A DNA stretch of 64,000 bases, from NCBI RefSeq assembly GCF_013416775.1, contig NZ_SZVI01000013.1, positions 124,001-188,000 of the forward strand, written 5' to 3'. This DNA comes from Rhodoferax sp. BLA1. Its GTDB lineage: Bacteria; Pseudomonadota; Gammaproteobacteria; Burkholderiales; Burkholderiaceae_C. Within the stretch, counting starts at the first letter, position 1. Each line of letters starts with the position of its first letter. This document shows positions 2,324 to 55,660 of the stretch, in pieces. A program made the position numbers and the translations under genes. The notes under the pieces are model-generated. The model was not told the origin of the DNA and did no database searches. It saw only the letters and a list, made by a program, of their open reading frames with translations.

Positions 2324-2366
2324 AGATAGCTTCTGGACCAGTTAGAACAAGGGCTACAGGCCAAAA
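2324..2366. repeat. Dispersed intergenic repeat, copy 1
   Basis: Contains AGATAGCTTCT, about 18 variable bases, then AACAAGGGCTACAGGCCAAA. The same order (ATAGCT, spacer, AAGGGCTA-AGGC-AAAA) recurs at 3751, 22493, 29551, 38331, 45048, 46594, 52536 and 55611. It lies between the divergent ends of the acetyltransferase and the hypothetical gene. Confidence 0.6.
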
Positions 2367-2397
2367 TAACCCATAAATCCTGTCACCGATCCGGAGC

Positions 2398-2958
2398 TCA
2401 GGCCCACAGCTTCCACCAGCGGGCTTTGGGCTGCAGGTCAAGCAATTCGTCAAACGGCGTGTTGTCCAGCACCGGGTTGGACTCGTCGTGGCGAAAGCCG
2501 GTGAGCTCTTGGGCCAGCATCAGCGGCACATCCATGTGGAAGTGGCCTTCCAGGTTCTCACTGTCCTCGGGCTCCACGGTGACCAGCAAGTCATGGAACC
2601 GCTGCGGCACCCTACCCTGGCAAGACATGTTCTCGGGGTCAAGGTCTCCCTGGTGTTCAACACGCCAGATCAACTGGCCGTCTTGCCACAGCGCGGTCGA
2701 CGCGTAGTTGACATGTTCTTCCAACGCGCAGGCCACCAAGCGGCAACCCGCTGACAGCGTCGACAAGCTTGGCGACAAACCAATACGGTGGTCACACCGA
2801 CCAGCCATCACCAAGAACCAGTCTGCCAACAAGCCATGGCTGGCGATGCCCTTGAACGGGTAACTGCAAGTGTTGCCGGTGTGTTTGAGGCCCAGACGTG
2901 ACAAAGCGTCTTCGGCAGAAAGTCCTTGCACCGCAACCCAGCTTAAAGAAACACCCAT
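2398..2958 (-). CDS. Conserved-looking hypothetical protein
   Basis: A 186-residue protein starting MGVSLSWVAVQGLSAEDALS. I do not recognise a named domain. There is no signal peptide or membrane segment; the protein is acidic with several Trp residues (it ends KARWWKLWA) and looks cytoplasmic. I prefer the ATG at 2958; a longer reading to 3063 adds 35 residues that overlap the neighbouring hydrolase gene and look like non-coding sequence. It lies 10 bp downstream of the alpha/beta hydrolase on the same strand and could be co-transcribed with it. Reading-frame length and codon use support a real gene. Confidence 0.65.
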   Translation of the reverse strand: MGVSLSWVAVQGLSAEDALSRLGLKHTGNTCSYPFKGIASHGLLADWFLVMAGRCDHRIGLSPSLSTLSAGCRLVACALEEHVNYASTALWQDGQLIWRVEHQGDLDPENMSCQGRVPQRFHDLLVTVEPEDSENLEGHFHMDVPLMLAQELTGFRHDESNPVLDNTPFDELLDLQPKARWWKLWA

Positions 2959-2968
2959 GGTGTATGGC

Positions 2969-3703
2969 TCAGGTTGGGGATCTGTGACTACCCTGCTGGC
3001 ACAGCGCGGCGATGGCGGTGTAAGCGTCTTCACGGGCCTGTGGCTCGCGTGCATAGTGCTCACTGAGTTGGTGGCTAGCCCGGTGGATGATGTGGTGCTG
3101 GCTGCTGGCGCTCTTGCTGGCGCAGGTCAAGTAGGTGTGCGGGATCTCGGGCGGCACCACGCAGTCTTCTTCTGCCGATATCACCAGTAGGTGGCCGGTG
3201 TAATCGGCCACCAGATCAAACGCATCTGAATCCACCCAACTGTCGGGTGTGCGCAGGATCTGGCTGAACTGCGGCCCAAACGGCACCTGGTAGGCCTGGG
3301 TGGCATAAGCCGCCGGAATGGCCAGACACAGGCGCGGCACACCCAACTGGGCAGCGGCCTTGACCGCCACATAAGCACCCATACTGAAACCCACCAGCGC
3401 CAGCGACTCGGGCGCCAGCCCTTGCGATTGAACAATGGTGATCACCTGCAACACCCGCTCCTCCAGCGTGGTGCCCAGCTGGGCGCCCCCGGTGCGGCCA
3501 TGACCCACCGCGTCAAAAGCGATGGTCTCGATGTGGCGGGCATGTAAAAAGCGACGCAGTTCGCCAAAACCCTCAGCGGCGGAAGTTCCACCACCATGCA
3601 GCACCAGCGCCGTCTGCGTGGCGCCGGATGGCGTGTACCGGCTGCCACGCAGCAGCGAGCCTTGGAACGGCACTTCGAAATCGACAGCCTCCCCGCTCAG
3701 CAT
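2969..3703 (-). CDS. alpha/beta hydrolase
   Basis: About 244 residues with the alpha/beta-hydrolase fold. The oxyanion segment ALVLHGGGTS comes first, then FDAVGHGRTGG, then the nucleophile elbow GFSMGA; the acid is likely in VISAEEDCVVPPE and the histidine in HRASHQLSEHYA. Substrate unknown; carboxylesterase or thioesterase activity is the safe class call. The start is uncertain: no convincing ribosome binding site precedes the ATG at 3703, and a GTG (3730) or TTG (3736) further upstream is in frame. Its 5-prime side abuts a dispersed repeat. Confidence 0.8.
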   Translation of the reverse strand: MLSGEAVDFEVPFQGSLLRGSRYTPSGATQTALVLHGGGTSAAEGFGELRRFLHARHIETIAFDAVGHGRTGGAQLGTTLEERVLQVITIVQSQGLAPESLALVGFSMGAYVAVKAAAQLGVPRLCLAIPAAYATQAYQVPFGPQFSQILRTPDSWVDSDAFDLVADYTGHLLVISAEEDCVVPPEIPHTYLTCASKSASSQHHIIHRASHQLSEHYAREPQAREDAYTAIAALCQQGSHRSPT

Positions 3704-3750
3704 GGCGGGTTTTGGTTTAAACGGCGACACAGGCAAGCGGTGGCGCCTGC

Positions 3751-3817
3751 AAAAATACTATCTAAAACATAGCTCATGGTGCTGATTGGATAAGGGCTAC
3801 AGGCAAAAATACGATCT
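3751..3817. repeat. Dispersed intergenic repeat, copy 2
   Basis: Carries ACATAGCTCATGG, a short spacer, then GGATAAGGGCTACAGGCAAA and flanking A/T-rich AAAAATAC segments on both sides. It sits directly upstream of the alpha/beta hydrolase start. Compare the other copies listed under position 2324. Confidence 0.65.
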
Positions 3818-3869
3818 ATTGATCTTGCCCCGACTTTACATGGACCAGGGTGCCCGGCAGAACTGCCCA

Positions 3870-15415: not shown

Positions 15416-17191
15416 TTAAACAAATTCGGTGAAGTTAGCAGCCATGTGTGACAGTCGTTCTACACCCACCGGCTCTTCTGTGAGGAGCGGCACCAGCGCA
15501 TAGCGGCTGGCATGGTGCATGGCCACGGCTTCAATCTCACGCAGTTCGTTGTGGGCCCGCTGGCGCAACAAGGGTGAGCTGACCTGGGCTGCGGCCACGC
15601 TGTTGTTGATGACCCAGGCCCAGGGCTCAATCCCGGCTCGGCGCAGGTCGGCCTGCAAGTTGGCGGCTTCCAGCACCGGTGTGGTCTCGGCCAGGGTCAC
15701 GATCAGCACCTTGGTTTGTGTTGGGTCTTGCAGCTGCATCATCGGGGTGGTGAAGTGGCCTTGGCTGCCCATTTGGCGCACCACATCGCGGTGGTAGGCG
15801 CCAGTGGCGTCCAGCAGCAGCAGAGTGTGGCCGGTGGGCGCGGTATCCATCACCACAAACTTTTTGCCCGCCTCACGGATCACGCGCGAGAAGGCCTGGA
15901 ACACCGCAATTTCTTCGGTGCACGGAGAGCGCAGGTCTTCTTCGAGCACCGCGCGGCCAGCGGCATCAAGCTTGGCGCCTTTGCTGGCGAGCACCTGGAC
16001 GCGGTAGGCCTCGGTGACCTCATGTGGGTCGATGCGACTCACGGTCAGATGTTCCAGCGTGCCGTGCAAGGTGTCCATCAGGTGGGCAGCGGGGTCCGAG
16101 GTGGTCAGGTGCACTGGGTAACCGCGTTGGGCCAGCGCCACCGCCACCGCAGCGGCGAGCGTGGTTTTGCCAACACCGCCCTTGCCCATCAGCATCACCA
16201 GGCCATGGCCTTCAACCGCGATGTCATCCACCAAAGACGACAGATTGGGCGCGTTGAAAGCGGGCGCCTGGGGTAACACAGCCTGTGGAACGGGCCCTGC
16301 GGCGTCGGGAGTTCCCAGCAGTTGGCGCAAGGCAGGCAGGCCAACCAGGTTGAAGGCTTTGAGGCCAATCTGGTCGACTGGCAAGTGGCGCAAGGCCTCA
16401 GGCAGCTTGGCCAGCGCCGCCTGCTCGCGGTTCACAATGGCTTGGGCCAGCGGGTCGTGGCTGGCTTGTGCTGCCGGAAACACACCGTTGATCACCAGGT
16501 ACTGTTTGGTGAGGCCAATACCCGCCAGCTCGTCGTGGGTGCGCGCCGCTTCTTTTAATGTAGCTAACTGCGCCCGTGCCACAAGGACAAAACGGGTTTT
16601 TGATGCATCAGCCAGGGCATCGACAGCGGCCTTGTACTGGGTGCGCTGTTTTTCCAGCCCGGCCAAGGGTCCCAGGCATGAGGCGTCACCTTTGCCCGCT
16701 TCCAGAAAACCGCTCCAGGCGCCGGGCAGCTGCAACATCCGGATGGTGTGACCGGTGGGCGCGGTGTCAAACACGATGTGGTCAAAAACCTGGGTGAGCA
16801 CGCTGCTGACCAGCAAGCCGGTGAACTCGTCAAACGCGGCAATCTCGGTGGTGCAGGCGCCTGAGAGCTGTTCTTCAATACCTTTGACGATAGCCTCAGG
16901 CAACACACCACGCACCGGTCCCACAATGCGGTCGCGGTAAGCTTGGGCAGCAGCTTGCGGGTCGATTTCCAGGGCGCTCAAGTTGGGCACCTCAGCCACG
17001 GTCGTGATCTGGTTGCCGATGGTGATGCCAAACACCTGGCCCACGTTGGACGCCGGGTCGGTGCTGACCAGCAGCACCCGCTGGCCTGCTGCGGCCAGTT
17101 CAATGGCGGTGGCGCAGGCGATAGAGGTTTTGCCCACACCGCCCTTGCCGGTGAAGAACAAGAAGCGCGGGGGGTGGTCGAGGAATTGCAT
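15416..17191 (-). CDS. arsA: ArsA arsenite-activated ATPase, double-domain
   Basis: A 591-residue protein with two homologous ATPase halves. Deviant Walker A motifs are GKGGVGKTS (residues about 15-23) and GKGGVGKTT (about 336-344); each half has the DTAPTGHT signature. The three metalloid-binding cysteines of ArsA are present: Cys113 (LSGACTTEI), Cys172 (DASCLGP) and Cys424 (RSPCTEEI), the first two at exactly the E. coli plasmid R773 numbers. ArsA couples ATP hydrolysis to arsenite efflux through the membrane pump. It lies 6 bp after arsD, the metallochaperone that feeds it. Confidence 0.97.
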   Translation of the reverse strand: MQFLDHPPRFLFFTGKGGVGKTSIACATAIELAAAGQRVLLVSTDPASNVGQVFGITIGNQITTVAEVPNLSALEIDPQAAAQAYRDRIVGPVRGVLPEAIVKGIEEQLSGACTTEIAAFDEFTGLLVSSVLTQVFDHIVFDTAPTGHTIRMLQLPGAWSGFLEAGKGDASCLGPLAGLEKQRTQYKAAVDALADASKTRFVLVARAQLATLKEAARTHDELAGIGLTKQYLVINGVFPAAQASHDPLAQAIVNREQAALAKLPEALRHLPVDQIGLKAFNLVGLPALRQLLGTPDAAGPVPQAVLPQAPAFNAPNLSSLVDDIAVEGHGLVMLMGKGGVGKTTLAAAVAVALAQRGYPVHLTTSDPAAHLMDTLHGTLEHLTVSRIDPHEVTEAYRVQVLASKGAKLDAAGRAVLEEDLRSPCTEEIAVFQAFSRVIREAGKKFVVMDTAPTGHTLLLLDATGAYHRDVVRQMGSQGHFTTPMMQLQDPTQTKVLIVTLAETTPVLEAANLQADLRRAGIEPWAWVINNSVAAAQVSSPLLRQRAHNELREIEAVAMHHASRYALVPLLTEEPVGVERLSHMAANFTEFV

Positions 17192-21732: not shown

Positions 21733-22488
21733 TCAGCCACGGCCCACAAAGGGCATGTTGGTGGCCATCACGGTGTGGAACAACACATTGGCGCCCACAG
21801 GTAAATTGGCCATGTACAACACCGATTGGCCAGCGATGGCCACATCCATCACCGGCTCCACCGCAGTCTGGCCATTGGCCTGCAAAATGCCCGCCTGCAT
21901 GCGCTGGGCCATCTCGGTGGCGGCGTTGCCGATGTCGATCTGACCCACGGCAATGTTGTACTTGCGCCCATCGAGCGCAGCGGACTTGGTCAGCCCACTC
22001 ACCGCATGTTTGGTGGCGCTGTAGGCCACCGAGTTGGGCCGCGGTGTGGTCGCGGCGATCGAGCCGTTGTTGATGATGCGCCCACCCTGAGGGGTTTGCG
22101 CCTTCATCACCCGAAAGGCCTGGCGAAGGCACAAAAACATGCCGGTCAGATTTACATCCACCACGCCCTGCCACTGGTCCAGCGTCAGGTCTTCCAGCAA
22201 CACCGCCGGGGCGCTGATCCCGGCGTTGTTGAACAACACATCCACCCGGCCAAACTGGCGCACCGTGGTGTCAAACAGGGCCAGCACCGAGGCTTCATCC
22301 GTCACATCCGTCGGTACCACCAGACAACGCTCTGGCGCGCCACCCTGCTGTGCCACCTCAGCCAGCAGCGGCTCACGCCGCCCCGCCAGCACCACGCGGT
22401 AACCGTCTTGCAACAAAGCCAATGCTGCCGCCCGGCCAATGCCGGAGCCGGCACCCGTGACCACAGCCACTCTAAAATTCTCAGTCAT
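21733..22488 (-). CDS. Short-chain dehydrogenase/reductase
   Basis: A 251-residue classical SDR. Coenzyme-binding TGAGSGIG is at the N-terminus, NNAG at about residue 90, and the catalytic Ser and Tyr-x-x-x-Lys in IINNGSIAA and YSATKHAV. It catalyses NAD(P)-dependent oxidation or reduction of an unknown alcohol or ketone. The ATG at 22488 begins [14 protein letters not shown]; the frame is open further upstream into rnr, but those residues are not SDR. It converges with the kinase gene and follows rnr on the same strand after a repeat. Confidence 0.9.
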
Positions 22489-22492
22489 AACA

Positions 22493-22542
22493 TTTATATA
22501 GCGAACAATGCTTGATGGATAAGGGCTAGCGCCTATTTTTGC
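22493..22542. repeat. Dispersed repeat, copy 3, forming the 3-prime end of rnr
   Basis: Contains TATATAGCGAACAATG, GATGGATAAGGGCTAGCGCC and TATTTTTGC. The TAG stop of rnr (22526-22528 on the minus strand) is the CTAG of this repeat, and the last few rnr codons (R-K-N-R-R) are read from its A-rich arm. Confidence 0.75.
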
Positions 22543-24787
22543 GACTTTTATCCCTAGACTTGCCAGCCACCGGCGCACGCCGCGTCGTTTTGGCCGCCGC
22601 AGAAGGCTTGGGTGAACGCGCCAAGGGTTCCGAAATTTTGCGGCTGCGTCGGCCTGTGGGCGCGCCATCCAGGTCCGACTCAAATACAGCGCGCTCGTTG
22701 CTCTCACCCTTGTCCTTGAGTGCGCGCGCCACCAGCGCCTCACCTTCCTGCACCAGACGGAAATCAATCCGCCGTCCGTCCAGATCCACCCGGCTGACCT
22801 GCACACGAACACGGGTTCCGAGTGCATAACGCAAACCGGTGCGTTCACCGCGCAACTCCTGGCGTGCCTCGTCAAAGCGGTAGTACTCACCACCGAGTTC
22901 GGTGATGTGCACCAGGCCTTCGACATACATCGCATCCAGCGTGATGAACAGGCCAAAACTCGTCACCGAGCTGACCACACCCGAGAACTCCTCACCCAGG
23001 TGCTCACGCATGTACTTGCACTTGAGCCAGGCCTCCACATCGCGGCTGGCTTCGTCGGCACGGCGCTCGTTGGCGCTGCAATGCAGGCCCGCAGACTGCC
23101 AGGCGAGCATGTCGGCGCTGAGTTTGCGCGGTTTCTGACCAGGTTCAGCCACCTTGGAAGCCAGGTTTTTCTCCAGCCGTTTGGACAGCTTGGCGTGGGC
23201 TTCACCCGGTGTTGGCAACACGGGCAAGACGTATTTGGTCTTGGCCAGAATCGCCTTGATGACGCGGTGCACCAACAGATCGGGGTAACGCCGGATCGGG
23301 CTGGTGAAGTGGGTATAGGCCTCAAACGCCAGACCAAAGTGGCCGCTGTTGACGGGTGTGTAAATCGCCTGCTGCATCGAGCGCAACAACATCGAATGGA
23401 TCTGCGCAGCATCGGGCCGGTCTTTGGTGGCGTTGGCAATCGCCTGGAACTCACCAGGCGACGGATCGTCGCTGATGGTCAGGCCGACACCGGTCACCTT
23501 CAGGTAGTTGCGCAACACCTCTTTTTTCTCGGGTGTCGGGCCTTCGTGCACACGGAACAGGCCGGCTTGTTTGCCCTGCGCAATGAAGTCAGCGCTGCAG
23601 ACGTTGGCGGCCAACATCGCCTCTTCGATCAGCTTGTGGGCGTCATTGCGGGTGCGCGGCACAATTTTTTCGATGCGGCCCACTTCGTCACAGACGATCT
23701 GAGTTTCCACCGTCTCGAAGTCCACCGCACCACGGCGCACGCGCGACTTGAGCAAGGCACGGTACACATCATGCAGATGGATCAGGTCATCAATCCGGTC
23801 CTTGCGTTTGAGCGCTTCCGGGCCACGGGTGTTGGCCAGAATCGCTGCCACCTCGTTGTAGGTGAAACGCGCGTGGCTCCACATCACGGCCGGGTAAAAC
23901 TGGTAGGCAGTGACCTCGCCATCTTCGGAGACCACCATGTCGCAAACCATACACAGGCGTTCCACCTCAGGGTTGAGGGAACACAGGCCATTGGAGAGTT
24001 TCTCGGGCAGCATCGGAATGACTCGGCGCGGGAAATACACGCTGGTGGCACGGTCGTAGGCATCTATGTCGATGGCCGACCCGTTTTCCACATAATGGCT
24101 CACGTCGGCAATCGCCACCAGCAAGCGCCAACCGGGGGTGGCCGCCCTGCCCTTGCCGATCTTGGTGGGTTCGCAGTAGACGGCATCGTCAAAGTCACGG
24201 GCGTCTTCGCCGTCGATGGTGACCAGCGGCACATCGGTCAGATCAACCCGCTTGAGCTTGTCCTGCGGTCGCACCTTGTCGGGCAAGGCACGGGCCAGCG
24301 CCATACAAGCCTCGGAAAACTCATGTGGCACGCTGTACTTGCGCACAGCGATCTCGATCTCCATGCCGGGGTCGTCAATTTCCCCCAACACTTCTTTCAC
24401 GCGTCCAACTGGCTGGCCGAACAGTGCGGGCGGCTCGGTGAGTTCCACCACCACCACCTGACCAGCGCGTGCGGCACCGGTGGCGGCCTTGGGGATCATG
24501 ATGTCCTGGCCGTAACGTTTGTCCTCGGGGGCGACGATCCAGATGCCGCTCTCATGCAACAAGCGGCCAATGATGACCTGGTTGCTGCGTTCAACAATCT
24601 CGACCACCCGACCCTCAGGGCGACCTTTGCGGTCACTGCGCACGATGCGAACCTTGACACGGTCCTTGTGCAGCACCGCACGCATCTCGTTGGGCGGCAG
24701 ATAGATGTCAGCCTCTCCATCGTCACGGGTCACAAAACCATGGCCATCACGATGACCTTGAACAATTCCTTCAACTTCTTCCAGCAA
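22526..24787 (-). CDS. rnr: Ribonuclease R (start codon uncertain)
   Basis: A ~753-residue 3-to-5-prime exoribonuclease of the RNase II/R family. Cold-shock-like domains come first ([20 protein letters not shown]), then the RNB catalytic domain with [10 protein letters not shown], where the metal-binding aspartates lie, and the S1 domain ([20 protein letters not shown]), ending in a basic tail. It degrades structured RNA and assists in tmRNA-linked decay. The usual N-terminal winged-helix domain is not visible. No ATG lies between the tRNA-Leu at 24837 and the first conserved residues; the only common-type candidate I can place is a TTG at 24787 without a good ribosome binding site. An SD-like AGGAAAGAGAG lies further up, near 24822-24832. 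The 3-prime end lies inside a dispersed repeat. Confidence 0.93.
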
Positions 24788-32643: not shown

Positions 32644-32667
32644 ACACCGACCCAGCGTTTACATGCA

Positions 32668-32715
32668 AAAAGCGCCTCAAGCCCTTATAAAACCGGCGTG
32701 AGGCGCTATTTTTTT
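32668..32715. terminator. Bidirectional intrinsic terminator between rpoD and tag
   Basis: Stem AGCGCCTCA (32671-32679) / TGAGGCGCT (32699-32707) with a T run on the plus side (32709-32715) and an A run on the other, so it can serve both convergent genes. The loop carries AGCCCTTATAAA, shared with the dispersed repeat. A similar copy lies at 33473-33539. Confidence 0.85.
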
Positions 32716-32720
32716 GATAC

Positions 32721-33329
32721 CTAACAAACCGAGGGACGCTGGAACTTCGTCCGGGCCAGATCGACCTGAGCGCGAATGACACACGCCTGTGCATGGTCGT
32801 TGATCAAGCCCACGGCCTGCATGAAGGCATACACGGTCGTTGGCCCGACGAATTTCCAGCCGCGTTTTTTCAGATCTTTGGACAGGGCGACCGAAGCCAC
32901 TGAGGAGGATGCCGATTGGAACGGTGCGGCGTGCGGTGCCTCATAAGACCACACATAGGTGGCCAGCGAACCTTCCTGCGCGATCAGCGCCTGGGCGCAG
33001 CGCGCGTTGTAGATCACCGCCTCGATCTTGCCACGATGGCGCACGATGCCTGCATCAGCCAGCAGGCGCTCGACATCTTTCTCATCAAAGCGCGCCACCG
33101 CATCAATGTCAAAACGCTTAAACGCAGCACGAAAATTTTCGCGCTTGGCAAGGATAGTGCGCCAACTCAGACCCGACTGGAAGGCTTCCAGGCTCAGTTT
33201 CTCGAACAGATGCCGGTCATCGGCCACCGGGAAGCCCCACTCGGTGTCGTGGTAGTGCTGGTACTCTGGCGTTGCCAAACACCAGCGGCAGCGCGCTTGA
33301 CCATCGTCTGCGGGCAAGGTCGTACTCAT
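32721..33329 (-). CDS. tag: DNA-3-methyladenine glycosylase I
   Basis: A 202-residue Tag protein. It begins with RCRWCLATPEYQHYHDTEWG, where the N-terminal zinc Cys and His lie, and ends with NDHAQACVIR, carrying the other zinc ligands. The core LSLEAFQSGLSWRTILAKRE is diagnostic; the Glu of LEAFQ and the aromatic residues line the base pocket. It removes 3-methyladenine from alkylated DNA. The ATG at 33329 is supported by GAAGGAG about 9 bases upstream; a TTG two codons earlier is too close to that site. Confidence 0.96.
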   Translation of the reverse strand: MSTTLPADDGQARCRWCLATPEYQHYHDTEWGFPVADDRHLFEKLSLEAFQSGLSWRTILAKRENFRAAFKRFDIDAVARFDEKDVERLLADAGIVRHRGKIEAVIYNARCAQALIAQEGSLATYVWSYEAPHAAPFQSASSSVASVALSKDLKKRGWKFVGPTTVYAFMQAVGLINDHAQACVIRAQVDLARTKFQRPSVC

Positions 33330-33472
33330 CGGCAAGACTCCTTCTGGTACACAAGAAAGTCGGGCAACTCAGCCCAGCAGGACATGCCGCCACTCATCCA
33401 CACGCGCCGCCGTGATCTTAAGGATAGCCGCATGCACCATACCTTGCGAGACAGACCTATGAATTGCCAGCA

Positions 33473-33539
33473 GTTACATAAGAAAAGCGCCTCAGACCCT
33501 CATATGACGGGCGTAAGGCGCTATTTTTTTGATATCTAT
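33473..33539. repeat. Orphan second copy of the rpoD terminator region
   Basis: About 66 bp resembling 32658-32725 (roughly 80 percent by eye): AGCGCCT / AGGCGCT stem and T run at 33524-33530, with the flanking TTACAT also shared. It lies in the gene-free stretch 33330-33707 between tag and tRNA-Pro, where no gene ends on the plus strand. The rest of that stretch shows only the tRNA terminator at 33663. Confidence 0.7.
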
Positions 33540-34743: not shown

Positions 34744-37176
34744 TCAGGTGCGTTGACGGGCACCCAGGCGCTCCGCCAGGGTCGCAACCACCGCCGCCAC
34801 GGCGGTCTCGATCTGCGCCTCGGTCAACGCAACTTCGTCCGTGGTGTTGAGGGTCAGGCGCACCGCCATGCTTTTCTCGGCACTGGACATGTCATTGGCA
34901 CCCGAGGTCTTGGGACGGTAGATGTCAAACAGTAAGGCATCACGCAACACCCCACCCACAGGCGCGGCCCAGATGGCTGCCATCAGCGCGTCGTGAGTGA
35001 CACATTCGCTAACCAGCACCGCAATATCACGCTCGACCGCCTGGAACTTCGGCACTGCCTTGAAGCGAGGCACCTCGCGGGACAACACCGCCGCCAGGTC
35101 CACCTCGAACAATATGGGGGCCTGGTTCAGGTCATACGCCTGGCGCCATTTGGGATGCAGTTCACCCACAAAACCCACATCCATGCCGTTGAGCACCACC
35201 TTGGCGCAACGCCCCGGGTGCAGTGCCGGATGCTCGGCCGCCACAAACGTGGCACACGCCGGAGCCAGCAAAGCCTCCAGATCACCCTTAACGTCAAAGA
35301 AGTCCACGGCACGCTCTTTGACACCCCACTCGGGTGCGTCACAAGCGCCCACGGCCAGACCGGCCAGCCGCATCGGCTGGTCAAAACCCTGCACTGTGGT
35401 GTCAGAGCTGGTCACCGAGGCATCACGCAAAAACACGCGACCGATCTCAAAAACACGCACACGCTGCGCCTTGCGGTCCTGGTTGAACTTCAAAACCTGT
35501 AGCAAAGAACCCAGCAAGGACGAGCGCATGACACTCATTTGGCTTGCAATCGGGTTGAGCAACTTGATCGGATTCGGGTTGCCCGCCAGCTCGTGTTCCC
35601 AGCGCTCTTCGACAAAGCTGAAGTTGATGGTTTCCTGGTAACCCAGTGCCGCCACCGCTCGGCGCACTGCAAAGTCACCACGCCGGGCCTCGGTGCGGAC
35701 TTTGGCGGTGATCGGTGCCTGTGGTGGTGTGGCCGGCAGGTTGTCATAACCCACCACACGCGCGACTTCCTCGATCAGGTCTTCCTCGATCTGGATGTCG
35801 AACCGGTAGGACGGTGCGGTCACCGACAACACGCCGTCGCCCTCCACCACCGGCAAACCCAGTCCTGCGAGCGCCTTGGCGCATTGCGCCTGACTCAAAG
35901 GCATACCCAGCACCTTGATCGCACGCGCCACACGCAGCGTCACCACAGAGGGCTGCGGCATGGCCACACGTTGGTCATCCATCGGACCGCAACGGGTATC
36001 GGGTGTGCCGCAGATCTCGACGATCAACTGTGTGATGCGTTCGATATGCTCTACCGTCAGCTCGGGGTCCACTCCCCGCTCAAAACGGTGACCAGCATCG
36101 GTGGAAAAGTTGAAGTGGCGCGAACGCCCGGCAATCGCCCGAGGCCACCAGAAAGCGGCTTCCACGTAGACGTTTTGGGTGTCGTCTGAGACGGCGGTGG
36201 CGTCACCACCCATGATGCCAGCCAGCGACTCCACCTGCTGGGCATCGGCAATGACACCCACATGGGCGTCGACGGTCACGGTGTTGCCATTGAGCAGCTT
36301 GAGCTGTTCACCGGGCTGACCCCAGCGCACCTCCAACCCACCGTGGATCTTGTCCAGGTCAAAAATATGCGAGGGCCGACCCAACTCAAACATCACATAG
36401 TTGGAGATGTCGACCAAGGCCGTCACACTGCGCTGACCGCAGCGTGCCAGACGGTCCACCATCCAGGCTGGGGTGCTCGCCTTGGGGTTGACACCGCGGA
36501 TGATGCGACCCGAAAAACGGCCACACAAATCCGGCGCACTGACCTTGACCGGCAACAAATCGCTGGCCGTCACTGGGGCGACCGGAAACACGGGCGTCTT
36601 CAAGGGCGTGCCGGTCAAGGCCGACAGTTCACGTGCCACACCGTAGACGCTGAGGCAATGTGCTAGGTTCGGTGTGAGCTTGAGGGTGAACAGCGTGTCG
36701 TCCAGATTCAGGTGTTCACGGATGTTCTGCCCCACGGGTGCATCAGCGGACAGCTCCAGCAGGCCACCGTGGTCTTCGGACAGCTTCAGTTCACGCGCCG
36801 AGCACAACATGCCAAAACTCTCAACCCCGCGCAGCTTGCCCACCTTGATCAGGAACGGCTTGCCATCCTCGCCGGGCGGCAACTCGGCACCGACCAGAGC
36901 ACAGGGCACCTTGATGCCCACTCGGGCATTGGGCGCACCACAGACAATGGTCAGCAGCTCCGGCTGGCCCACATCCACCTGGCAGACGCGCAGACGGTCC
37001 GCATTGGGGTGCTGTGCCGCAGCCTTGATCTCACCGACCACAATGTGTTGAAACGGGGGTGCCACAGGGCTGAGCTCTTCCACTTCCAGCCCCGCCATCG
37101 TCAGCGTGTTGGCCAGTTGCTCGGTGGTCAGAGGTGGGTTGCAGAATTCGCGCAGCCAGGATTCAGGAAATTGCAT
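34744..37176 (-). CDS. pheT: Phenylalanyl-tRNA synthetase beta subunit
   Basis: An 810-residue PheT, slightly longer than the ~795 of E. coli. It has the N-terminal tRNA-binding domain (IVVGEIKAAAQHPNADRLRV), the B3/B4 editing domain (FGMLCSARELKLSEDHGGLL and the RFSGRIIRG region), B5, the catalytic-like core with NFSFVEERWEHELAGNPN, and the C-terminal FDX-ACB domain (FKAVPKFQAVERDIAVLVSE). With PheS it forms the alpha2-beta2 enzyme that charges tRNA-Phe. It lies 55 bp downstream of pheS. Confidence 0.97.
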   Translation of the reverse strand: MQFPESWLREFCNPPLTTEQLANTLTMAGLEVEELSPVAPPFQHIVVGEIKAAAQHPNADRLRVCQVDVGQPELLTIVCGAPNARVGIKVPCALVGAELPPGEDGKPFLIKVGKLRGVESFGMLCSARELKLSEDHGGLLELSADAPVGQNIREHLNLDDTLFTLKLTPNLAHCLSVYGVARELSALTGTPLKTPVFPVAPVTASDLLPVKVSAPDLCGRFSGRIIRGVNPKASTPAWMVDRLARCGQRSVTALVDISNYVMFELGRPSHIFDLDKIHGGLEVRWGQPGEQLKLLNGNTVTVDAHVGVIADAQQVESLAGIMGGDATAVSDDTQNVYVEAAFWWPRAIAGRSRHFNFSTDAGHRFERGVDPELTVEHIERITQLIVEICGTPDTRCGPMDDQRVAMPQPSVVTLRVARAIKVLGMPLSQAQCAKALAGLGLPVVEGDGVLSVTAPSYRFDIQIEEDLIEEVARVVGYDNLPATPPQAPITAKVRTEARRGDFAVRRAVAALGYQETINFSFVEERWEHELAGNPNPIKLLNPIASQMSVMRSSLLGSLLQVLKFNQDRKAQRVRVFEIGRVFLRDASVTSSDTTVQGFDQPMRLAGLAVGACDAPEWGVKERAVDFFDVKGDLEALLAPACATFVAAEHPALHPGRCAKVVLNGMDVGFVGELHPKWRQAYDLNQAPILFEVDLAAVLSREVPRFKAVPKFQAVERDIAVLVSECVTHDALMAAIWAAPVGGVLRDALLFDIYRPKTSGANDMSSAEKSMAVRLTLNTTDEVALTEAQIETAVAAVVATLAERLGARQRT

Positions 37177-38330: not shown

Positions 38331-38404
38331 AGGAAAAAGGGCTAGTGCTTTTTCAAGCTCTAGCCCTTATCTCTGTTACTTAGTTAGCTATTCTTTAAAT
38401 AGCA
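38331..38404. repeat. Dispersed repeat, copy 5, between rplT and pheS
   Basis: Stem AAGGGCTAG (38337-38345) / CTAGCCCTT (38360-38368) and a second stem GCTATT / AATAGC near 38387-38404. It lies between rplT and pheS, so transcription of pheST must pass through it or start within it. Confidence 0.75.
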
Positions 38405-38416
38405 AACAGTCGGCAC

Positions 38417-41857: not shown

Positions 41858-41886
41858 AAAAAAAAACGCGGATCAGTCCGCGTTTT
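41858..41886 (-). terminator. Leader terminator/attenuator just upstream of thrS
   Basis: A perfect 10-bp stem AAAACGCGGA / TCCGCGTTTT with a 4-nt loop, followed on the minus strand by more T residues. It ends about 25 bp before the thrS start. As aceA has its own terminator at 42045, this one most likely acts inside the thrS leader as a transcription attenuator. A smaller hairpin (CGTGC / GCACG) precedes it. Confidence 0.65.
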
Positions 41887-42044
41887 ACTATTATCTTGAG
41901 AGCACACCGTGCATAAGGCACGCGGGCTACGGCCTTATTCTTTGAATACCTTTGCCGTTGTCGTTCGCGGTGTCATAACCAGATGCCTTTCTCGCTCTTG
42001 TCAATGTGTGATGCGCACATTTTAGCCGCAGTCGAACACCTCAT

Positions 42045-43699: not shown

Positions 43700-45031
43700 T
43701 TAGAACTGATCGACGTACTGTTGCAGCTCCCAGTCGCTCACGCTGGCCGCATAGGCTAACCATTCCTCGGTCTTGAGGGTGAGGAACTGCTGGCAAAAGG
43801 CCTCTCCCAGCGCCTGGGTCAGCGTGGTGTCCCGTGCCAGTGCCTGCAAGGCCGCTCCCAGATCCACAGGCAAGCGCTCGGGCATCACAGCGCCCGAGGC
43901 AAAACGCTCGTAAAGATCTTCATTGCAGGCGGTCGGCACCGGCAGGGCACTGTCGATGCCATCCAACCCGGCCGCCAGTGTGGCCGCAATGGCGGCGTAA
44001 ACGTTGCACGAGGGGTCGGGCAGACGCCACTCCAGTCGACCGGCCACGGTACGGACCAGGCAAGTGCGGTTGTTGTCCCCAAACGCTTTCCAGACCGGTG
44101 ACCAGGTCGTGCCCGAGACGCTGTGGCTCAAGGCCAGACGTTTGTAGCTGTTGACCGTGGGTGCACAGAGGGCCGTCAAGGCATCCGCATGTTGCAGCAA
44201 GCCCGCCACAAAACCATAACCCTGGGCGCTGAGCTGCAACGCGTCGGTGCTGTCCGTGAACACCGCCCTGCCCTGTTCGTCGGTGATGCTCAGGTGAAAG
44301 TGCAGCCCACTGCCCGGCGCACCAGCAAAGGGCTTGGGCATACAGCTGAAGATGCAGCCATGTTGCTCGGCGATGGCATGGGCCGTCAGCTTGAACAGCA
44401 TAAAACGATCCGCCGCGGCCAGCGCGTCATCAAAGCTGTAATTGATCTCATACTGGCCGCAAGCGTCTTCATGGTCGATCTGCTGCAGCTCGAACCCGAG
44501 CTGGATCAGCGCCACACGCATGTCGTCCAGAAAACCCTGGTTGCGGTGGATCGACTTCAAGTCATACGAGGGTTTGTCGAGCCTGTCGTTTCCGTCCGCT
44601 GGCAACCAGCGCCCGTCAGCGCCCTTTTTCAGCAGGAAAAATTCGGGTTCGATCCCCACCCACAAGGTCCAGCCACGTTCTTTCAATCGTGCCAATTGGC
44701 TTTTGAGCAGCTGGCGAGAATCGGTGTCCAAGGGTAAACCGCCCGCATAACCGTCACACACCGCATGAGCTACCCCCGGCATGAACGACAAGGGGCGCAG
44801 GCTCTCGGGCTGAACGCGGCCGTAATACTCGCTGCGCGCGCCATAGCGCCCGAGACCGGTGCCCCAGATGCTGGGCCCGGCAAAACCAGCGCCCGTCTCG
44901 ACCCACTCGCGCAGGTTGTGCAGTGGCACCAGTTTGCCCTTGGCCACACCGTGGATGTCACAGAACTGGGTCAGGATGGAGTGGATGCCGCGTGCTTGCA
45001 GATCGGCGATGAGTGTCTCGTAGTTGTTCAT
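43700..45031 (-). CDS. GlnT / gamma-glutamylmethylamide synthetase-like ligase
   Basis: A 443-residue member of the glutamine synthetase superfamily. ILTQFCDIHGVAKGKLVPLH and GAGFAGPSIWGTGLG open the protein, then the metal-binding GIEPEFFLLKKG and IDHEDACGQYEINYSF, PGSGLHFHLSI and NNRTCLVRTVAGRLEWRLPD. This arrangement and the closing SDWELQQYVDQF resemble gamma-glutamylmethylamide synthetases and the GlnT group rather than GlnA or PuuA. Such enzymes join glutamate to an amine with ATP. As last gene of the polyamine cluster, 80 bp after the aldehyde dehydrogenase, an alkylamine or diamine acceptor is plausible. Confidence 0.85.
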   Translation of the reverse strand: MNNYETLIADLQARGIHSILTQFCDIHGVAKGKLVPLHNLREWVETGAGFAGPSIWGTGLGRYGARSEYYGRVQPESLRPLSFMPGVAHAVCDGYAGGLPLDTDSRQLLKSQLARLKERGWTLWVGIEPEFFLLKKGADGRWLPADGNDRLDKPSYDLKSIHRNQGFLDDMRVALIQLGFELQQIDHEDACGQYEINYSFDDALAAADRFMLFKLTAHAIAEQHGCIFSCMPKPFAGAPGSGLHFHLSITDEQGRAVFTDSTDALQLSAQGYGFVAGLLQHADALTALCAPTVNSYKRLALSHSVSGTTWSPVWKAFGDNNRTCLVRTVAGRLEWRLPDPSCNVYAAIAATLAAGLDGIDSALPVPTACNEDLYERFASGAVMPERLPVDLGAALQALARDTTLTQALGEAFCQQFLTLKTEEWLAYAASVSDWELQQYVDQF

Positions 45032-45047
45032 GGTCTTTTCGCCTTCA

Positions 45048-45089
45048 AGCCCTTATTTAAAAAGGGCTAAGAGCTACGCTAAATGTAGC
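45048..45089. repeat. Dispersed repeat, copy 6
   Basis: Stem AGCCCTT (45048-45054) / AAGGGCT (45062-45068) and a second stem GCTAC / GTAGC (45073-45089). It lies between the aldehyde dehydrogenase stop and the GlnT-like start on the minus strand. Confidence 0.75.
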
Positions 45090-45110
45090 AATACACTGGC
45101 AGGCTGCCAG

Positions 45111-46580: not shown

Positions 46581-46593
46581 TTTGATACCTCAA

Positions 46594-46640
46594 AATAAAT
46601 AGCATTCAGCCCAATTTGGAAAAGGGCTAGAGGCCAAAAA
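46594..46640. repeat. Dispersed repeat, copy 7, ending at the potI stop
   Basis: AAATAGCATTCAGCCC, spacer, then AAAAGGGCTAGAGGCCAAAA. The potI stop codon (46641-46643) directly abuts the repeat. Confidence 0.8.
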
Positions 46641-47501
46641 CTACTGACCCTGCAGGGCCACCAGCTCAGCCCGCGTGGCGGCGGCAATTTCGCGTTCACG
46701 TTTGCGCGTCTGGCGCGCCACCCAGACACTGTAGGCGATCACCACCACCGTCACCGACACAATCAGCAAGGTGGCTGCTGCGTAAATGGTCGGGTTGATG
46801 CCGCGCCGGGCGTAGCCAAAAATCACCTGCGGCAAGGTGTTGACCCCCGGGCCGGACAAGAACTCTGAAATCACCACATCGTCAAACGACAAGGTAAAGG
46901 CCAGCAGGAACGCAGCCAAAATGGCCTGCAGGATGTTGGGCATGGTGACCAGAAAAAACACCTGGAACGGCTTGGCACCCAGGTCCATGGCGGCCTCTTC
47001 AATCGAGCGGTTCATCTCGAGCAGGCGCGACTGGATCACCACCATGCCATAGGCCATGCCCAGCAGCGTGTGGCCCAGCACAATCGTCAACATGCCACGC
47101 TGTGGCCAGCCAAAGGCGTTCTGGATGCCTACCATCAGCAGCAACAAGGACAGGCCAATCACCACCTCGGGCATCACCAACGGCGCATTCACCATGCCGG
47201 AAAACAGGGTGCGACCCCGGAAACGGCGGTAACGCACCAGCACAAAAGCGGCAAAAGTGGCCATCACCGCAGATGCCAGCCCGGAGGCGGTCGCCACCTG
47301 AACCGACAACCAGAAGCCTTCCACAATCTTGGTGTCTTCGGTCAGCGCCTGGTACCAGCGCAGCGAGAAACCTGTGAAATTGGCGTCCTGGCGGGTGCTG
47401 TTGAAGGAAAACACCACCATGAACATCAAGGGCAGGTACAAAAACAGGAAGACCAGCGCCATCCAAAACTTGCCGATGTACTTTGCAAGAAACTGATTCA
47501 T
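46641..47501 (-). CDS. potI: Polyamine ABC transporter permease PotI
   Basis: A 286-residue permease with six hydrophobic segments starting WMALVFLFLYLPLMFMVVFS. The binding-protein-dependent EAA loop reads RSIEEAAMDLGAKPFQVFFL followed by VTMPNILQAILAAF. FSFNSTRQDANFTGFSLRWY is typical of PotC/PotI. It forms the inner-membrane channel with PotH. I use the ATG at 47501. An unusual 232-bp gap with a hairpin element separates it from potH, which in most bacteria is directly adjacent. Confidence 0.93.
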   Translation of the reverse strand: MNQFLAKYIGKFWMALVFLFLYLPLMFMVVFSFNSTRQDANFTGFSLRWYQALTEDTKIVEGFWLSVQVATASGLASAVMATFAAFVLVRYRRFRGRTLFSGMVNAPLVMPEVVIGLSLLLLMVGIQNAFGWPQRGMLTIVLGHTLLGMAYGMVVIQSRLLEMNRSIEEAAMDLGAKPFQVFFLVTMPNILQAILAAFLLAFTLSFDDVVISEFLSGPGVNTLPQVIFGYARRGINPTIYAAATLLIVSVTVVVIAYSVWVARQTRKREREIAAATRAELVALQGQ

Positions 47502-52511: not shown

Positions 52512-52535
52512 GGTTCACATCCTTATGAAAAAATG

Positions 52536-52583
52536 GGTTCTAGCCCTTTTATATCAAGGGCATACAGCTATACATGCAATAGC
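52536..52583. repeat. Dispersed repeat, copy 8, forming the 3-prime end of puuA
   Basis: CTAGCCCTTTTATATCAAGG, then GCATACAGCTATACATGCAA and TAGC. The puuA stop TAG (52568-52570) is part of the AGCTAT arm, so the last codons of puuA lie in the repeat. Confidence 0.75.
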
Positions 52584-53935
52584 AAATGTTCACGCTCCCA
52601 GGGTGAGATCACTTTCATGAACTCCTCAAACTCCAACTCTTTGATCTCGGAGTAGACGGTGATGAACTCCTTGCCCAGCACCTCGTGCAGGTCGGACTCG
52701 CGGCGCAACCAGTCCAACGCTTCGCCCAAACTGCGCGGCAAGGCATAGGGTGACAAATAGGCGTCACCTCTCATCTCAGCCTTGGGTTTGATCTTGTTCT
52801 TGAGGCCCAGGTAACCGCAGGCCAGGGTCATCGCCAGCGCCACATAGGGATTGGCGTCGGCACCAATCACCCGGTTTTCAACGCGACGCGCGGCGGGCGA
52901 CGAGATCGGGGAGCGGATACCCACGGTGCGGTTGTCATACCCCCACTCGATGTTGATCGGAGCCGCAGTGTTGCGCGACAGGCGGCGGTAGCTGTTGACA
53001 TACGGTGCCACCAACACCATCGCCGCCGGGATGTAGCGCTGCAGCCCGCCGATGTAATGCATGAAGGCCTCCGACGGTGTGCCGTCGGGATTGCTGAAGA
53101 TGTTTTTACCAGTGTCCTTGTTCAGAATGCTCTGGTGCACATGCATCGCGCTGCCGGGCTCACCGGCAATCGGCTTGGCCATGAAGGTGGCGTACATGTC
53201 ATGGCGCAGGGCCGACTCACGCACCGTGCGTTTGAACAAAAACACCTCGTCGGCCAGGCCCAGCGGCTCGGCATGGAAGAAGTTGATCTCCATCTGGCCC
53301 GCGCCAATTTCGTGGATCAAGGTGTCCACATTGAGCTCCATCTTGTCGGAGTAGTCGTAGATTTCTTCGAACAGAGGGTCGAACTCGTTGACTGCGTCGA
53401 TGCTGTAGGCCTGGCGCGAGGTCTCGGCGCGGCCACTGCGGCCAATCGGCGGGCGCAGCAAGGTGTTGGGGTCGGTGTTGCGGGCGGTCAGGTAGAACTC
53501 GAGTTCGGGCGCCACGATCGGCTGCAGGCCTTCTGCCGCAAACAGATCACACACCCGGCGCAACACGCTGCGTGGCGCAAACGGCACCAGGTTGCCATGG
53601 TTGTCAAAACAGTCGTGGATGACCTGCGCGGTCGGGTCGGTCGCCCAGGGCACGATGCGCACGGTGCTCGGGTCGGGGCGCAGCTGCATGTCTTTGTCGG
53701 TGGGGTCGATCACGTCGTAATACGGGCCGCTCTCAGGGAACTCGCCGGTCACCCCCATCGCCACCACCGACTGCGGCAGGCGCATGCCACGGTCTTCGGT
53801 GAACTTGCCACGCGGCAGGATCTTGCCACGCGCGACACCGGTCAAGTCAGGCACCAGGCATTCCACCTCGGTCACCCGACGTTCGTTCAGCCATTGCTCC
53901 AAATCATTGAAATTCATCGATTTTTTGTCAGTCAT
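52568..53935 (-). CDS. puuA: Glutamate-putrescine ligase
   Basis: A 455-residue glutamine-synthetase-superfamily enzyme of the PuuA group. It begins with VECLVPDLTGVARGKILPRG and has ELEFYLTARNTDPN, IHEIGAGQMEINFFHAEPLG, GSAMHVHQSIL and the arginine-rich NRTVGIRSPISSPAARRVEN. It joins glutamate to putrescine with ATP, the first step of the gamma-glutamylated pathway. It is the promoter-proximal gene of the polyamine cluster, divergent from the MocR regulator across a palindromic operator. The extreme C-terminus is formed by the dispersed repeat. Confidence 0.92.
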   Translation of the reverse strand: MTDKKSMNFNDLEQWLNERRVTEVECLVPDLTGVARGKILPRGKFTEDRGMRLPQSVVAMGVTGEFPESGPYYDVIDPTDKDMQLRPDPSTVRIVPWATDPTAQVIHDCFDNHGNLVPFAPRSVLRRVCDLFAAEGLQPIVAPELEFYLTARNTDPNTLLRPPIGRSGRAETSRQAYSIDAVNEFDPLFEEIYDYSDKMELNVDTLIHEIGAGQMEINFFHAEPLGLADEVFLFKRTVRESALRHDMYATFMAKPIAGEPGSAMHVHQSILNKDTGKNIFSNPDGTPSEAFMHYIGGLQRYIPAAMVLVAPYVNSYRRLSRNTAAPINIEWGYDNRTVGIRSPISSPAARRVENRVIGADANPYVALAMTLACGYLGLKNKIKPKAEMRGDAYLSPYALPRSLGEALDWLRRESDLHEVLGKEFITVYSEIKELEFEEFMKVISPWEREHLLLHV

Positions 53936-54036
53936 GGAACTCTCCTGAATCAGTCTGTACTCGGTTGAACACAGTCTTCTGGCACATTGTGGGGGCTGAA
54001 TTGGCTCAAAATCAGGGCCATTTGATTCAAATCAAA

Positions 54037-54060
54037 GGTACCACTTGCTAAAGTGGTACC
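54037..54060. promoter_or_regulatory. Perfect palindrome in the puuA-mocR divergent promoter
   Basis: Arms GGTACCACTT and AAGTGGTACC separated by GCTA, 10 of 10 pairs matching. It lies 47 bp upstream of the regulator start and about 100 bp upstream of puuA, a good position for an operator acting on both. Confidence 0.8.
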
Positions 54061-54107
54061 CACGACCCCTAACCCACTGTAACCCGGCTTTGACCCGCCA
54101 ACGCCCC

Positions 54108-55583
54108 ATGTTGTCCGAATTCCTGCTGAGCGAACTCAGCCGCCTGAACCCGCAAGACCGGCTGCCATTACACCGGCAGTTGTACGAGGCGCTGCGCCGC
54201 GCCATTCTGGAGAACAAGCTCAGCCCGGAGGAGCGCCTACCCTCCAGCCGCAACCTGGTGCAGGACCTGGGCCTGTCGCGCAACACCGTGGTCGCGGCCC
54301 TGAACCAGCTCACGGTCGAGGGGTATCTGGTCAGCCGCGTGGGCAGTGGCACCTTTGTCAGCGCCAAGGTGCCGCAGCGCCAGCGTCGGCCCCTGCGCCA
54401 GAGCAGCCACCCGGCACAACAGCTGTCACACCGCGGCCAGGCGCTGGGCAAACACTTTTGCGCCAGCGAGCTGGAGATCCAGCCCTTCACCCCGGGCATT
54501 GCCGACTTCAGCGCGTTCCCGGTGGCGCTGTGGCAGCGCCTGCAGAACAAACACTGGCGCATGACCTACCCCGACATGCTGGACTACAGCAGCAGCGGTG
54601 GTTACGCCCCGCTGCGCCGTGCGGTGGCCGACTATCTGCACATGTTTCGCAGTGTGGCGCTCGATCTGGACCAGGTCATCATCACCAGCGGCACCCAGGA
54701 GTCGCTGGAGCTGTGCGCGCAACTGCTGGCTGACCAGGGTGACACCGTCTGGCTGGAAGACCCGGCCTACTGGGGCGCGGGCAAAGCCTTCATGGCCACC
54801 GGGCTCAAAATTCACCCGGTGCCGGTCGACGAACAAGGCATTGCGCCCCAGGCAAGCGACCGCCACGCCCCCCCCAGACTGATGTACGTGACCCCCTCAC
54901 ACCAGTACCCGACCGGTGCGGTGATGTCGCTGGAGCGGCGCCACCAGATCCTGTCGCTGGCCAATGAACACCAGGCCTGGGTGCTGGAGGACGACTACGA
55001 CAGCGAGTTCCGTTTCAGCGGGCCACCTATTGCCTCGCTGGCCGGGCTCGACACCCAGGGCCGGGTGCTGTACCTGGGCTCGTTTTCCAAGGTGCTGTAC
55101 CCGGGCCTCAAGCTGGCGTATGTGGTGGTGCCCAAGGGGCTGGCGGCGGCGTTCAAGGCTGCCCACTACGACCTGAACCGCCCGGGCCAGATGCCGGTGC
55201 AGGCGGCATTGGCCGAGTTCATCGACATGGGCCACTTTGCAGCTTGCCTGCGCAAAGCACGCCAGAGTTACGCCCAGCGCCGCCACTGCCTGCTCGAAGC
55301 CTTGCAGCCCTGCCTGGGCCCCAACGCGCGCATCACCGGAGCCGAACAGGGCTTGCACCTGTGTGTGCGCCTGCCCGACCACCTGGATGACCAGGCGCTG
55401 GCCCGGCAACTTGGCAAGCTCGGTCTGGTGGTGCGACCCCTGTCGGCCTACTGCCTCAAACGCCGCGACCTGCGGGGACTGGTGATTGGTTATGGCTACG
55501 CACCGCTGGCGCAGATCCAACGGTTTGGGCCGGTGCTGGCGCAGGTCGTACAGCATGCTCTGGCCCACCGGCTCACAGCTTGA
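54108..55583 (+). CDS. MocR-family (GntR + aminotransferase fold) transcriptional regulator
   Basis: A 491-residue fusion. Residues about 15-85 form a GntR winged helix (RLPSSRNLVQDLGLSRNTVV, then ALNQLTVEGYLVSRVGSGTF); residues 120-490 are a class I aminotransferase-like domain that binds PLP, with SGTQESLELCAQLLADQGDT and the Lys in YLGSFSKVLYPGLKLAYVVV. MocR proteins such as GabR and PdxR sense PLP adducts of amines or amino acids. Divergence from puuA indicates control of the polyamine genes. The ATG at 54108 fits the domain start; one at 54045 would place translation over the operator. Confidence 0.9.
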   Translation: MLSEFLLSELSRLNPQDRLPLHRQLYEALRRAILENKLSPEERLPSSRNLVQDLGLSRNTVVAALNQLTVEGYLVSRVGSGTFVSAKVPQRQRRPLRQSSHPAQQLSHRGQALGKHFCASELEIQPFTPGIADFSAFPVALWQRLQNKHWRMTYPDMLDYSSSGGYAPLRRAVADYLHMFRSVALDLDQVIITSGTQESLELCAQLLADQGDTVWLEDPAYWGAGKAFMATGLKIHPVPVDEQGIAPQASDRHAPPRLMYVTPSHQYPTGAVMSLERRHQILSLANEHQAWVLEDDYDSEFRFSGPPIASLAGLDTQGRVLYLGSFSKVLYPGLKLAYVVVPKGLAAAFKAAHYDLNRPGQMPVQAALAEFIDMGHFAACLRKARQSYAQRRHCLLEALQPCLGPNARITGAEQGLHLCVRLPDHLDDQALARQLGKLGLVVRPLSAYCLKRRDLRGLVIGYGYAPLAQIQRFGPVLAQVVQHALAHRLTA

Positions 55584-55610
55584 GTGCCTGCGCTGCCTGT
55601 AAGATCACTT

Positions 55611-55660
55611 TATTTTTGATAGCTATCAGCCCTTATCAAACAAAGGCCAGAGCACAAAAA
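55611..55660. repeat. Dispersed repeat, copy 9, between convergent mocR and the oxidase
   Basis: TATTTTTGATAGCTATCAGC, CCTTATCAAACAAAGGCCAG and AGCACAAAAA. This is the most complete copy, with the palindrome GATAGCTATC, and may act as terminator for both convergent genes. Confidence 0.8.

Follow-up and report, generated by a model that had tools for sequence, protein, structure and literature searches.

A dispersed, palindrome-like motif of about 62 bp in Rhodoferax sp. BLA1: fixed positions, dialects and apparent origin in place within genes

The 64,000-nucleotide stretch of the Rhodoferax sp. BLA1 genome examined here (the window; C5:124001-188000 of a genome, G000, of 4.46 Mb in 15 contigs) carries a dispersed palindrome-like repeat which, as originally predicted, occurs in both orientations, and it does so between genes and within them. 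Copies were called with a 68-column position matrix at a cut-off score of 20 bits, in a final sample of 614,474 bases of G000, and genes with an open reading frame (ORF) caller made for this analysis. The matrix was trained iteratively on matches in G000 with self-inclusion, so the scores of weak copies are inflated. Comparisons were made with G004, the closest relative (27,091 fourfold sites, 16.7% of them different), with G010 (6,064 fourfold sites, 45% different from G000), with G005, and with G003, used as a motif-poor relative, whose placement beside the motif-rich genomes depends on a midpoint root; for these four genomes the comparisons cover partial sequence. The nine sites of the original prediction are genuine copies, all scoring above 20 bits; the weaker piece it placed at 49790 fails that cut, and five copies were added to its list (16545, 32657, 33472, 35484 and 41884). 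The copies in the window are:

2311..2378, plus strand: motif copy, intergenic; score 53.8
3754..3821, plus strand: motif copy, intergenic; score 49.6
16545..16612, plus strand: weak motif copy within ORF 15416-17191 (minus strand); score 26.5; not in the earlier list
22483..22550, plus strand: motif copy overlapping gene ends; score 45.1; identical in G004
29539..29606, plus strand: motif copy within ORF 28206-30071 (plus strand); score 40.7; 3 differences in G004
32657..32724, minus strand: motif copy; score 46.4; closest paralogue the copy at 33472, identity 0.794; not in the earlier list
33472..33539, minus strand: motif copy near the transfer RNA (tRNA) gene 33711-33784; score 34.8; not in the earlier list
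35484..35551, plus strand: weak motif copy within ORF 34744-37176 (minus strand); score 27.8; not in the earlier list
38339..38406, minus strand: motif copy joined to a terminator-like hairpin; score 40.4
41884..41951, plus strand: motif copy; score 30.3; G003 has no match and a shorter gap there; not in the earlier list
45025..45092, minus strand: motif copy; score 56.1; AAGCGCT form at the same site in G010 and G022
46584..46651, plus strand: motif copy; score 50.7; 6 of 7 changes relative to G004 lie in columns 30-39 (stem, loop)
52519..52586, minus strand: motif copy; score 62.0
55604..55671, plus strand: motif copy; score 50.2; mixed GG form in G005

At gathering score, Rfam returned no match to the repeat in the window and reported three tRNAs only. 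The site of copy 52519 is occupied in G004, G005, G010, G022, G002 and G020; no match was seen there in G003, G021 or G007, and G011 was without anchors. The G003 ortholog of copy 35484 (C5:159484) aligns without gaps, with 22 of 23 residues the same. At the site of copy 38339 G003 has a match of 37.0, probably its only one, and the terminator-like hairpin fused to this copy (window 38331-38406) is also kept in G003 (L153). The copies at 32657-32724 and 33472-33539 are unusually similar, lie 815 bases apart beside a tRNA and possibly reflect a local duplication.

With the final matrix, 138 copies were found in the G000 sample, about one per 4.5 kb and denser than the one per 7 kb first estimated; G003, as outside control, gave 1 match above 20 bits in 536,900 bases. 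A first-pass matrix built from 32 copies returned 90 matches of at least 12 bits in 400 kb, with both strands searched and palindromic sites counted twice, and none in three Markov resamplings or in the reversed sequence; 91 non-redundant copies were called in 400 kb with the position matrix. A 17-base piece of the repeat matched the whole genome at 115 places with 2 mismatches or fewer; the reversed control gave no match. Extrapolation from the sample implies roughly 1,000 copies per genome. The 32 copies align gap-free over 68 columns, with a shared region of about 62-68 columns; the repeat thus exceeds chance expectation, and its copies share more than a short palindrome.

The consensus, about 62 bp, approximates GCTAT-N2-AAATT-N-ATAGCT-N4-GCCCTT-N7-AAGGGCTAGAGGC-N2-ATTT, in the order GCTAT, an AAA/TTT block, ATAGC, GCCCTT, a seven-base loop, AAGGGCTAGAGGC and a second TTT/AAA block. 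The column preceding TAG is A in 29 of 35 copies and G in 6; within TAG itself, T is present in 29 of 35 and A and G in all 35. A GCCCTT/AAGGGC stem is evident in the consensus. Compensating change at the stem pairs among copies was not convincing, columns 26-44 giving a weak signal. The columns vary almost independently of one another: the strongest pairs listed share no more than about 0.2 bits of mutual information. Intergenic and coding copies have a similar consensus, carrying 54.9 and 48.5 bits in G000 and 63.2 and 56.1 bits in G010; these 48-63 bits are spread over about 62 columns with no short core of 10-16 bp. No near-identical copies were found in the sampled sequence: the best pair identity over 68 columns was 0.794 among 138 copies of G000 and 0.84 among 85 copies of G010, both partial genomes.

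The expectation that copies lie nearly always between genes was too strong, since 51 of the 138 fall inside called genes (52 by a slightly different rule). Among these coding copies 41 of 51 share one reading register (25 of 32 in G010), a bias that is partly expected because the consensus, read in the other frames, contains stop codons. Among intergenic copies there is a preference for convergent gaps, which hold 27 of 86 copies in G000 and make up 8,702 of its 65,628 intergenic bases; divergent gaps hold 4 of 86. In codirectional gaps the numbers of copies in the same and opposite orientation were 30 and 25 in G000, 20 and 17 in G010, and 6 and 17 in G004. Spacing along G000 was even (coefficient of variation, CV, 0.74; P=0.0003); as support for an uptake motif this was dropped, being confined to G000 and not repeated in G004 or G010. 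A Pfam survey of 10 host proteins (MurJ, a DUF3418 helicase, SpoU, an EF-Tu-type GTPase, DUF934, a UvrD-type protein, ComEC, a weak patatin match, Tex and a radical SAM protein) revealed no common pathway.

Copies are held at fixed places in related genomes. All 36 anchored sites are common to G000 and G004 (20 of 20 in an earlier comparison), with no gain or loss; the number of elements aligned to G004 is 37 or 36 by rule, and under the 36-element rule 72 of 108 were without anchors. In G010 a copy persists at 20 of the 22 usable sites, 84 of 108 being without anchors and two more discarded. No clean presence/absence insertion of 30-130 bases overlapping an element was found against sampled G004, G005 or G010. 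Change is specific to columns: AGC at columns 18-20 showed 0 changes in 111 cells (37 elements compared with G004), against 16.7% at fourfold sites, and loop columns 35 and 36 had changed in 11 and 13 of the 37 elements, 24 of 74 cells together. Because the copies were selected in G000, the comparison is tilted towards conservation on that branch. The shared sites in G004 and G010, together with the column-specific change, show that copies are passed on at the same places and that certain columns are under constraint.

Between genomes the stem changes from GC by way of GG to CG, as a genome-wide dialect. Exact counts of the CG, GG and GC stem pairs were 326/15/0 in G000, 321/10/2 in G004, 90/91/2 in G005, 1/29/91 in G010 and 1/26/85 in G023; the CG and GC patterns are self-complementary and may count twice, and the patterns searched were these three, the CC form not being among them. 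The dominant pair is CG in G000 and G004, CG and GG in G005, GC with some GG in G010, G023, G022 and G002, GC and GG alike in G013, and mostly GG in G020, G008 and G011, while 12 of 24 genomes gave at most 5 matches to the three patterns together. For use across species, the matrix was trained in addition on copies with two stem columns exchanged. At orthologous sites with CG in G000, G010 had GC at 7, GG at 7, and GA and CG at one each; over the variable columns, the identity of orthologs in this comparison was 0.535 and that of paralogs 0.334. On a PurL tree of 14 genomes with a midpoint root, the five motif-rich genomes fall on one side of a branch with 97/97 support. An exact 13-mer of the repeat occurs in 26 of 150 family genomes. 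One of these 26, G049, belongs to another genus and has 12 copies of the same architecture in 60 kb; six carry CTTGATGG in the loop, which could reflect copying or a dialect that includes the loop.

Matches to the AAGCGCT dialect were also seen on plasmids. Its 50-base consensus had a match in 1,749 plasmid records; among the matches listed, 7 of 10 lay inside a DUF1010 ORF at about 85-88% identity over 41 bases. On plasmid NZ_MZ513635.1 (L324) the match, at 1501-1541, is situated between dfrA12 and aadA2 in a class 1 integron. It may mark a Comamonadaceae origin of the cassette.

Orthologs in the sampled G003 sequence were available for 17 of the 51 coding copies. Nine of the 17 aligned ungapped, including 10 residues on either side; these score 23.8-54.8 in G000, five of them above 40, and all score below 0 in G003. 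At informative columns of these nine, 130 differences had the consensus base in G000, 21 had it in G003 and 44 in neither; the choice of copies in G000 biases this tally, but G003 yields 1 match in 536,900 bases. Across the motif in MutL the proteins are 82% the same, and the DNA scores -11.4 in G003 and 45.0 in G000. MutL residues 110-131 align gap-free to a solved homolog, a two-residue gap following just after the segment, and Dxr 76-97, with a weaker copy (28.2), is likewise gap-free to its solved homolog; PurL 287-309 exceeds its solved homolog by 7 residues, not by 22. The other eight coding copies were gapped, with net differences of -7, +4, +8, +8, +7, +17, -3 and -3 residues relative to G003. 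Only at C5:393246 (+17 residues) is nearly the whole motif absent from G003, which could be an insertion or a deletion; it is the sole insertion-like case of the 17, and in-frame lengthening by the motif was not seen in the remaining 16. These alignments suggest that inside genes the motif arose mostly by substitution in existing codons and not by insertion.

Different in-frame extra segments were seen in PurL of further genomes in the genus (L129, L132 and L134-L137), for example KINWGQIPIN...NNWNLTPI and RIKSGVSAPGIHGLRVEPAMT, and probably belong to other repeat families.

The transposase that the original prediction expected elsewhere in the genome was sought through family PF01797, which has one match in G000. 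The protein encoded by this Y1 gene is of the type of the REP-associated tyrosine transposases (RAYT; REP, repetitive extragenic palindromic sequence) and their counterparts associated with terminal inverted repeats (TIR; TIRYT), with 234 residues and an NHFH motif. The HxH residues (H60, H62) and tyrosines 113 and 120 are invariant in 13 aligned sequences, and either tyrosine is a candidate catalytic residue. PF01797 had at least one match in each of 23 same-genus relatives, repeat-less genomes included; the long Y1 gene is present in 22 of the 23, G008 having only a shorter IS200-like match. A motif copy overlaps the 3' end of the gene clearly at 7 of 14 loci (G000, G004, G010, G013, G019, G020 and G023) and weakly at 3; none was seen in G003, at two other-family loci or at one truncated locus. 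Of 80 named Y1 loci, 13 have a motif match starting within 120 bases upstream or 400 downstream of the stop, and 76 keep at least one of five upstream genes. Because the locus is syntenic, the linked copy was dropped as proof of mobilisation; it is probably one ancestral association. The Y1 protein remains a candidate mobiliser of the repeat.

The ends of the Y1 gene are of the GGGGTCAGA/GGGGACA type, which is described for TIR-associated enzymes (PMC3733652, section 16). An exact GCTAT-N8-ATNYGTCMC tail is present at 21 of the 80 loci. The 17-mer of the Y1 end is not dispersed, with 0 matches in 400 kb at up to 3 mismatches, and the GGGGTCAGATTCCAATT end of the Y1 unit was rejected as the dispersed repeat, having 0 matches in 400 kb. 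The neighbourhood of the long Y1 gene (L111 4678-5382; 80 loci L187-L266) is kept across Comamonadaceae, and the gene has a conserved 3' tail with TGTCCC...TCTGACCCC and looks domesticated.

The motif was likened to several known systems. Uptake sequences are described as originating by point mutation, with copies in ORFs and AT blocks (PMC1939737), and as forming clade dialects around a small invariant core (PMC3630211). Like the DNA uptake sequences (DUS) of Neisseriaceae and the uptake signal sequences (USS) of Pasteurellaceae, the present motif has very many copies in ORFs and is over-represented in gaps (PMC1939737, PMC3630211), has a substitution origin (here for coding copies only, 9 of 17 ungapped and 1 of 17 insertion-like) and shows clade dialects around an invariant core, AGC in this case (PMC3630211); as in USS, AT blocks lie beside the core (PMC1939737). 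Unlike them it spans about 62 bp and is palindrome-like, whereas known uptake sequences are non-palindromic and of 10-16 bp, or 29 bp with AT blocks (PMC1939737). With REP sequences and REPINs (REP doublets forming hairpins) that accompany a RAYT it shares high-copy palindromes, a TAG-containing foot, placement at gene 3' ends with some genic copies, and a Y1 gene in the genome. REP palindromes measure 20-40 bp with a GTAG (or CGTC) tag at one end, and copies flank their cognate RAYT. The present motif differs from this family in that the sample holds no near-identical copies, genic copies are mostly not insertions, the foot is mostly ATAG, and the Y1 gene has TIR-type ends and occurs without the repeat; the REP sequences of Pseudomonas fluorescens include 1,053 exact copies of three 16-mers (PMC3116915). 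The motif resembles Rickettsia palindromic elements in being a palindromic sequence that codes in frame inside conserved proteins, but those are in-frame insertions (PMC3733652) and most testable copies here do not lengthen the protein by the motif size. Like HIP1 (highly iterated palindrome 1) of cyanobacteria it is a palindromic motif over-represented genome-wide, and unlike HIP1, which is the 8-base GCGATCGC (PMC4390886), it is long and clade-variable.

Among the literature matches listed, none on uptake sequences was by title a Comamonadaceae report, and none to 12-16-base strings of the repeat was by title on these bacteria. In the excerpt of a paper on R. ferrireducens (PMC2755013), 'palindromic' is used only for clustered regularly interspaced short palindromic repeats (CRISPR). 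Miniature inverted-repeat transposable elements are reported from Polaromonas JS666 (Mattes 2008, cited in PMC10969869).

What was observed is the dispersal of the motif, its fixed positions, its origin in place within genes (9 of 17 testable coding copies), constraint on particular columns and the shift of dialect. Beyond this we tentatively favour, at somewhat less than even odds, a reading of the repeat as a DNA-level recognition motif spread by substitution, under selection or biased recombination, with uptake as its likeliest putative function. A sequence-specific DNA-binding protein would read the motif of about 62 bp as double-stranded DNA in either orientation, and the motif would be held at fixed chromosome places and, inside genes, be built by base substitution in existing sequence. 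By analogy, the likeliest reader would be the machinery that takes up DNA in natural transformation. Fragments carrying a better motif would enter cells and recombine more often, and the number of motifs would rise. Intergenic copies may additionally have gained length by insertion.

Several results weigh against this interpretation. Conserved intergenic gaps with a copy are longer than in G003 by a median of 53 bases (11 gene pairs), against a median of 0 for pairs without a copy (n=70; P=0.0009), +2.5 in a length-matched control (n=20) and +8.5 in the reverse control, G003 minus G000 (n=20); insertion and gap growth that made room for a copy both fit the 53 bases. Of the nine coding copies that align ungapped, four have scores under 30. 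Identity to the nearest paralogue in G000 (0.659) exceeds that in all 300 column-shuffled sets (0.629), a small excess that is seen also in G010 and G004. Even spacing was not repeated (CV 0.88, P=0.29 in G004; CV 1.20 in G010). Two segments of G004 unaligned to G000 contain 5 copies where about 8.6 were expected, so new DNA is not clearly motif-free. ComEC (PF03772) was found in 23 of 24 genomes; motif-poor genomes are among them, and the gene does not discriminate. The length of the motif, its 48-63 bits and its palindrome-like form are unlike uptake sequences. For this reason two alternatives were kept: a role in chromosome organisation, and a REP origin followed by homogenisation in place. 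One 21-kb segment of G004 without an aligned G000 counterpart, at C1 ~115742-136795 (stretch coordinates 65743-86796), has two copies.

It is rather doubtful, though the best of the alternatives, that the repeat is a REP-type family of non-autonomous palindromes moved as single-stranded DNA by the Y1 protein, now largely immobile, with copies later kept or homogenised. The high copy number, imperfect palindrome and TAG-containing foot before the stem agree with it, as do the enrichment in convergent gaps and scarcity in divergent ones, which match PMC3733652, where coding REPs and REP-supplied stop codons are also on record. The PF01797 gene with its HxH and invariant tyrosines and the copy at its 3' end in many loci, the 53 additional intergenic bases, the insertion-like copy at C5:393246 and the CTTGATGG shared by half of the G049 copies, which could mean copying, point the same way. 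The original prediction of a REP-like family with a transposase is borne out for the genome-wide dispersed palindromes, their convergent-gap enrichment and the single PF01797 gene with its 3'-end copy. Active mobilisation, its other part, finds no such agreement: near-identical copies are absent from the sample, the 36 anchored sites are all shared with G004, no more than one of the 17 coding copies with a G003 ortholog looks like an insertion, and repeat-poor genomes have the long Y1 gene as well. The Y1 ends, moreover, are TIR-type and not dispersed, the gene sits at one syntenic locus, and with 86 intergenic copies per 558 genes a neighbouring copy is unremarkable.

It is unlikely that the repeat is bound by a protein of chromosome organisation or DNA topology (nucleoid-associated, or wrapping in the manner of gyrase) and was selected in place at many sites. 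Such a role would account for the long dyad-like layout with AAA/TTT blocks on both sides, the use of both orientations in genes and gaps alike, the nearly independent columns, the strong constraint at AGC, AGG and TTT and the density of about one per 4.5 kb; the unrepeated even spacing counts against it, the patchy occurrence across the family is odd for a core organiser, and dialect shifts would require a changing core protein. An RNA-level element, either a transcription terminator or a hairpin stabilising messenger RNA, is very improbable, even though many intergenic copies directly follow stop codons, a 9-bp stem can form and G004 has an orientation bias in codirectional gaps. A one-way terminator, one form of the earlier suggestion, is not supported, given the unbiased orientation in G000 and G010 and the genic copies in both orientations, more than a third of all copies lying within genes; stem pairing is without covariation support, the GG mismatch is common in G005 and G020, and the consensus has no T-run after the stem.

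If the motif is indeed a recognition sequence spread by substitution, REP-like repeats that would be classed as mobile DNA can be motifs built up where they stand, through selection or biased recombination; copies of other REPs in coding sequence (PMC3733652) may share such an origin. The reader protein and the drive would become directly testable, and a free-living Burkholderiales lineage would have a much longer relative of uptake sequences. The change of dialect (GC, GG, CG, with G005 apparently half-way) would be a natural record of the rewriting of a recognition code. The repeat may then, although we would bet against it, represent a new kind of genome-wide mark: a palindrome-like motif of 62 bp and 50-60 bits, built letter by letter within genes and between them at about a thousand sites. 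It would have kept those sites despite divergence close to saturation, and its spelling would change in concert across the genome, by way of a mismatched intermediate, along with its reader.

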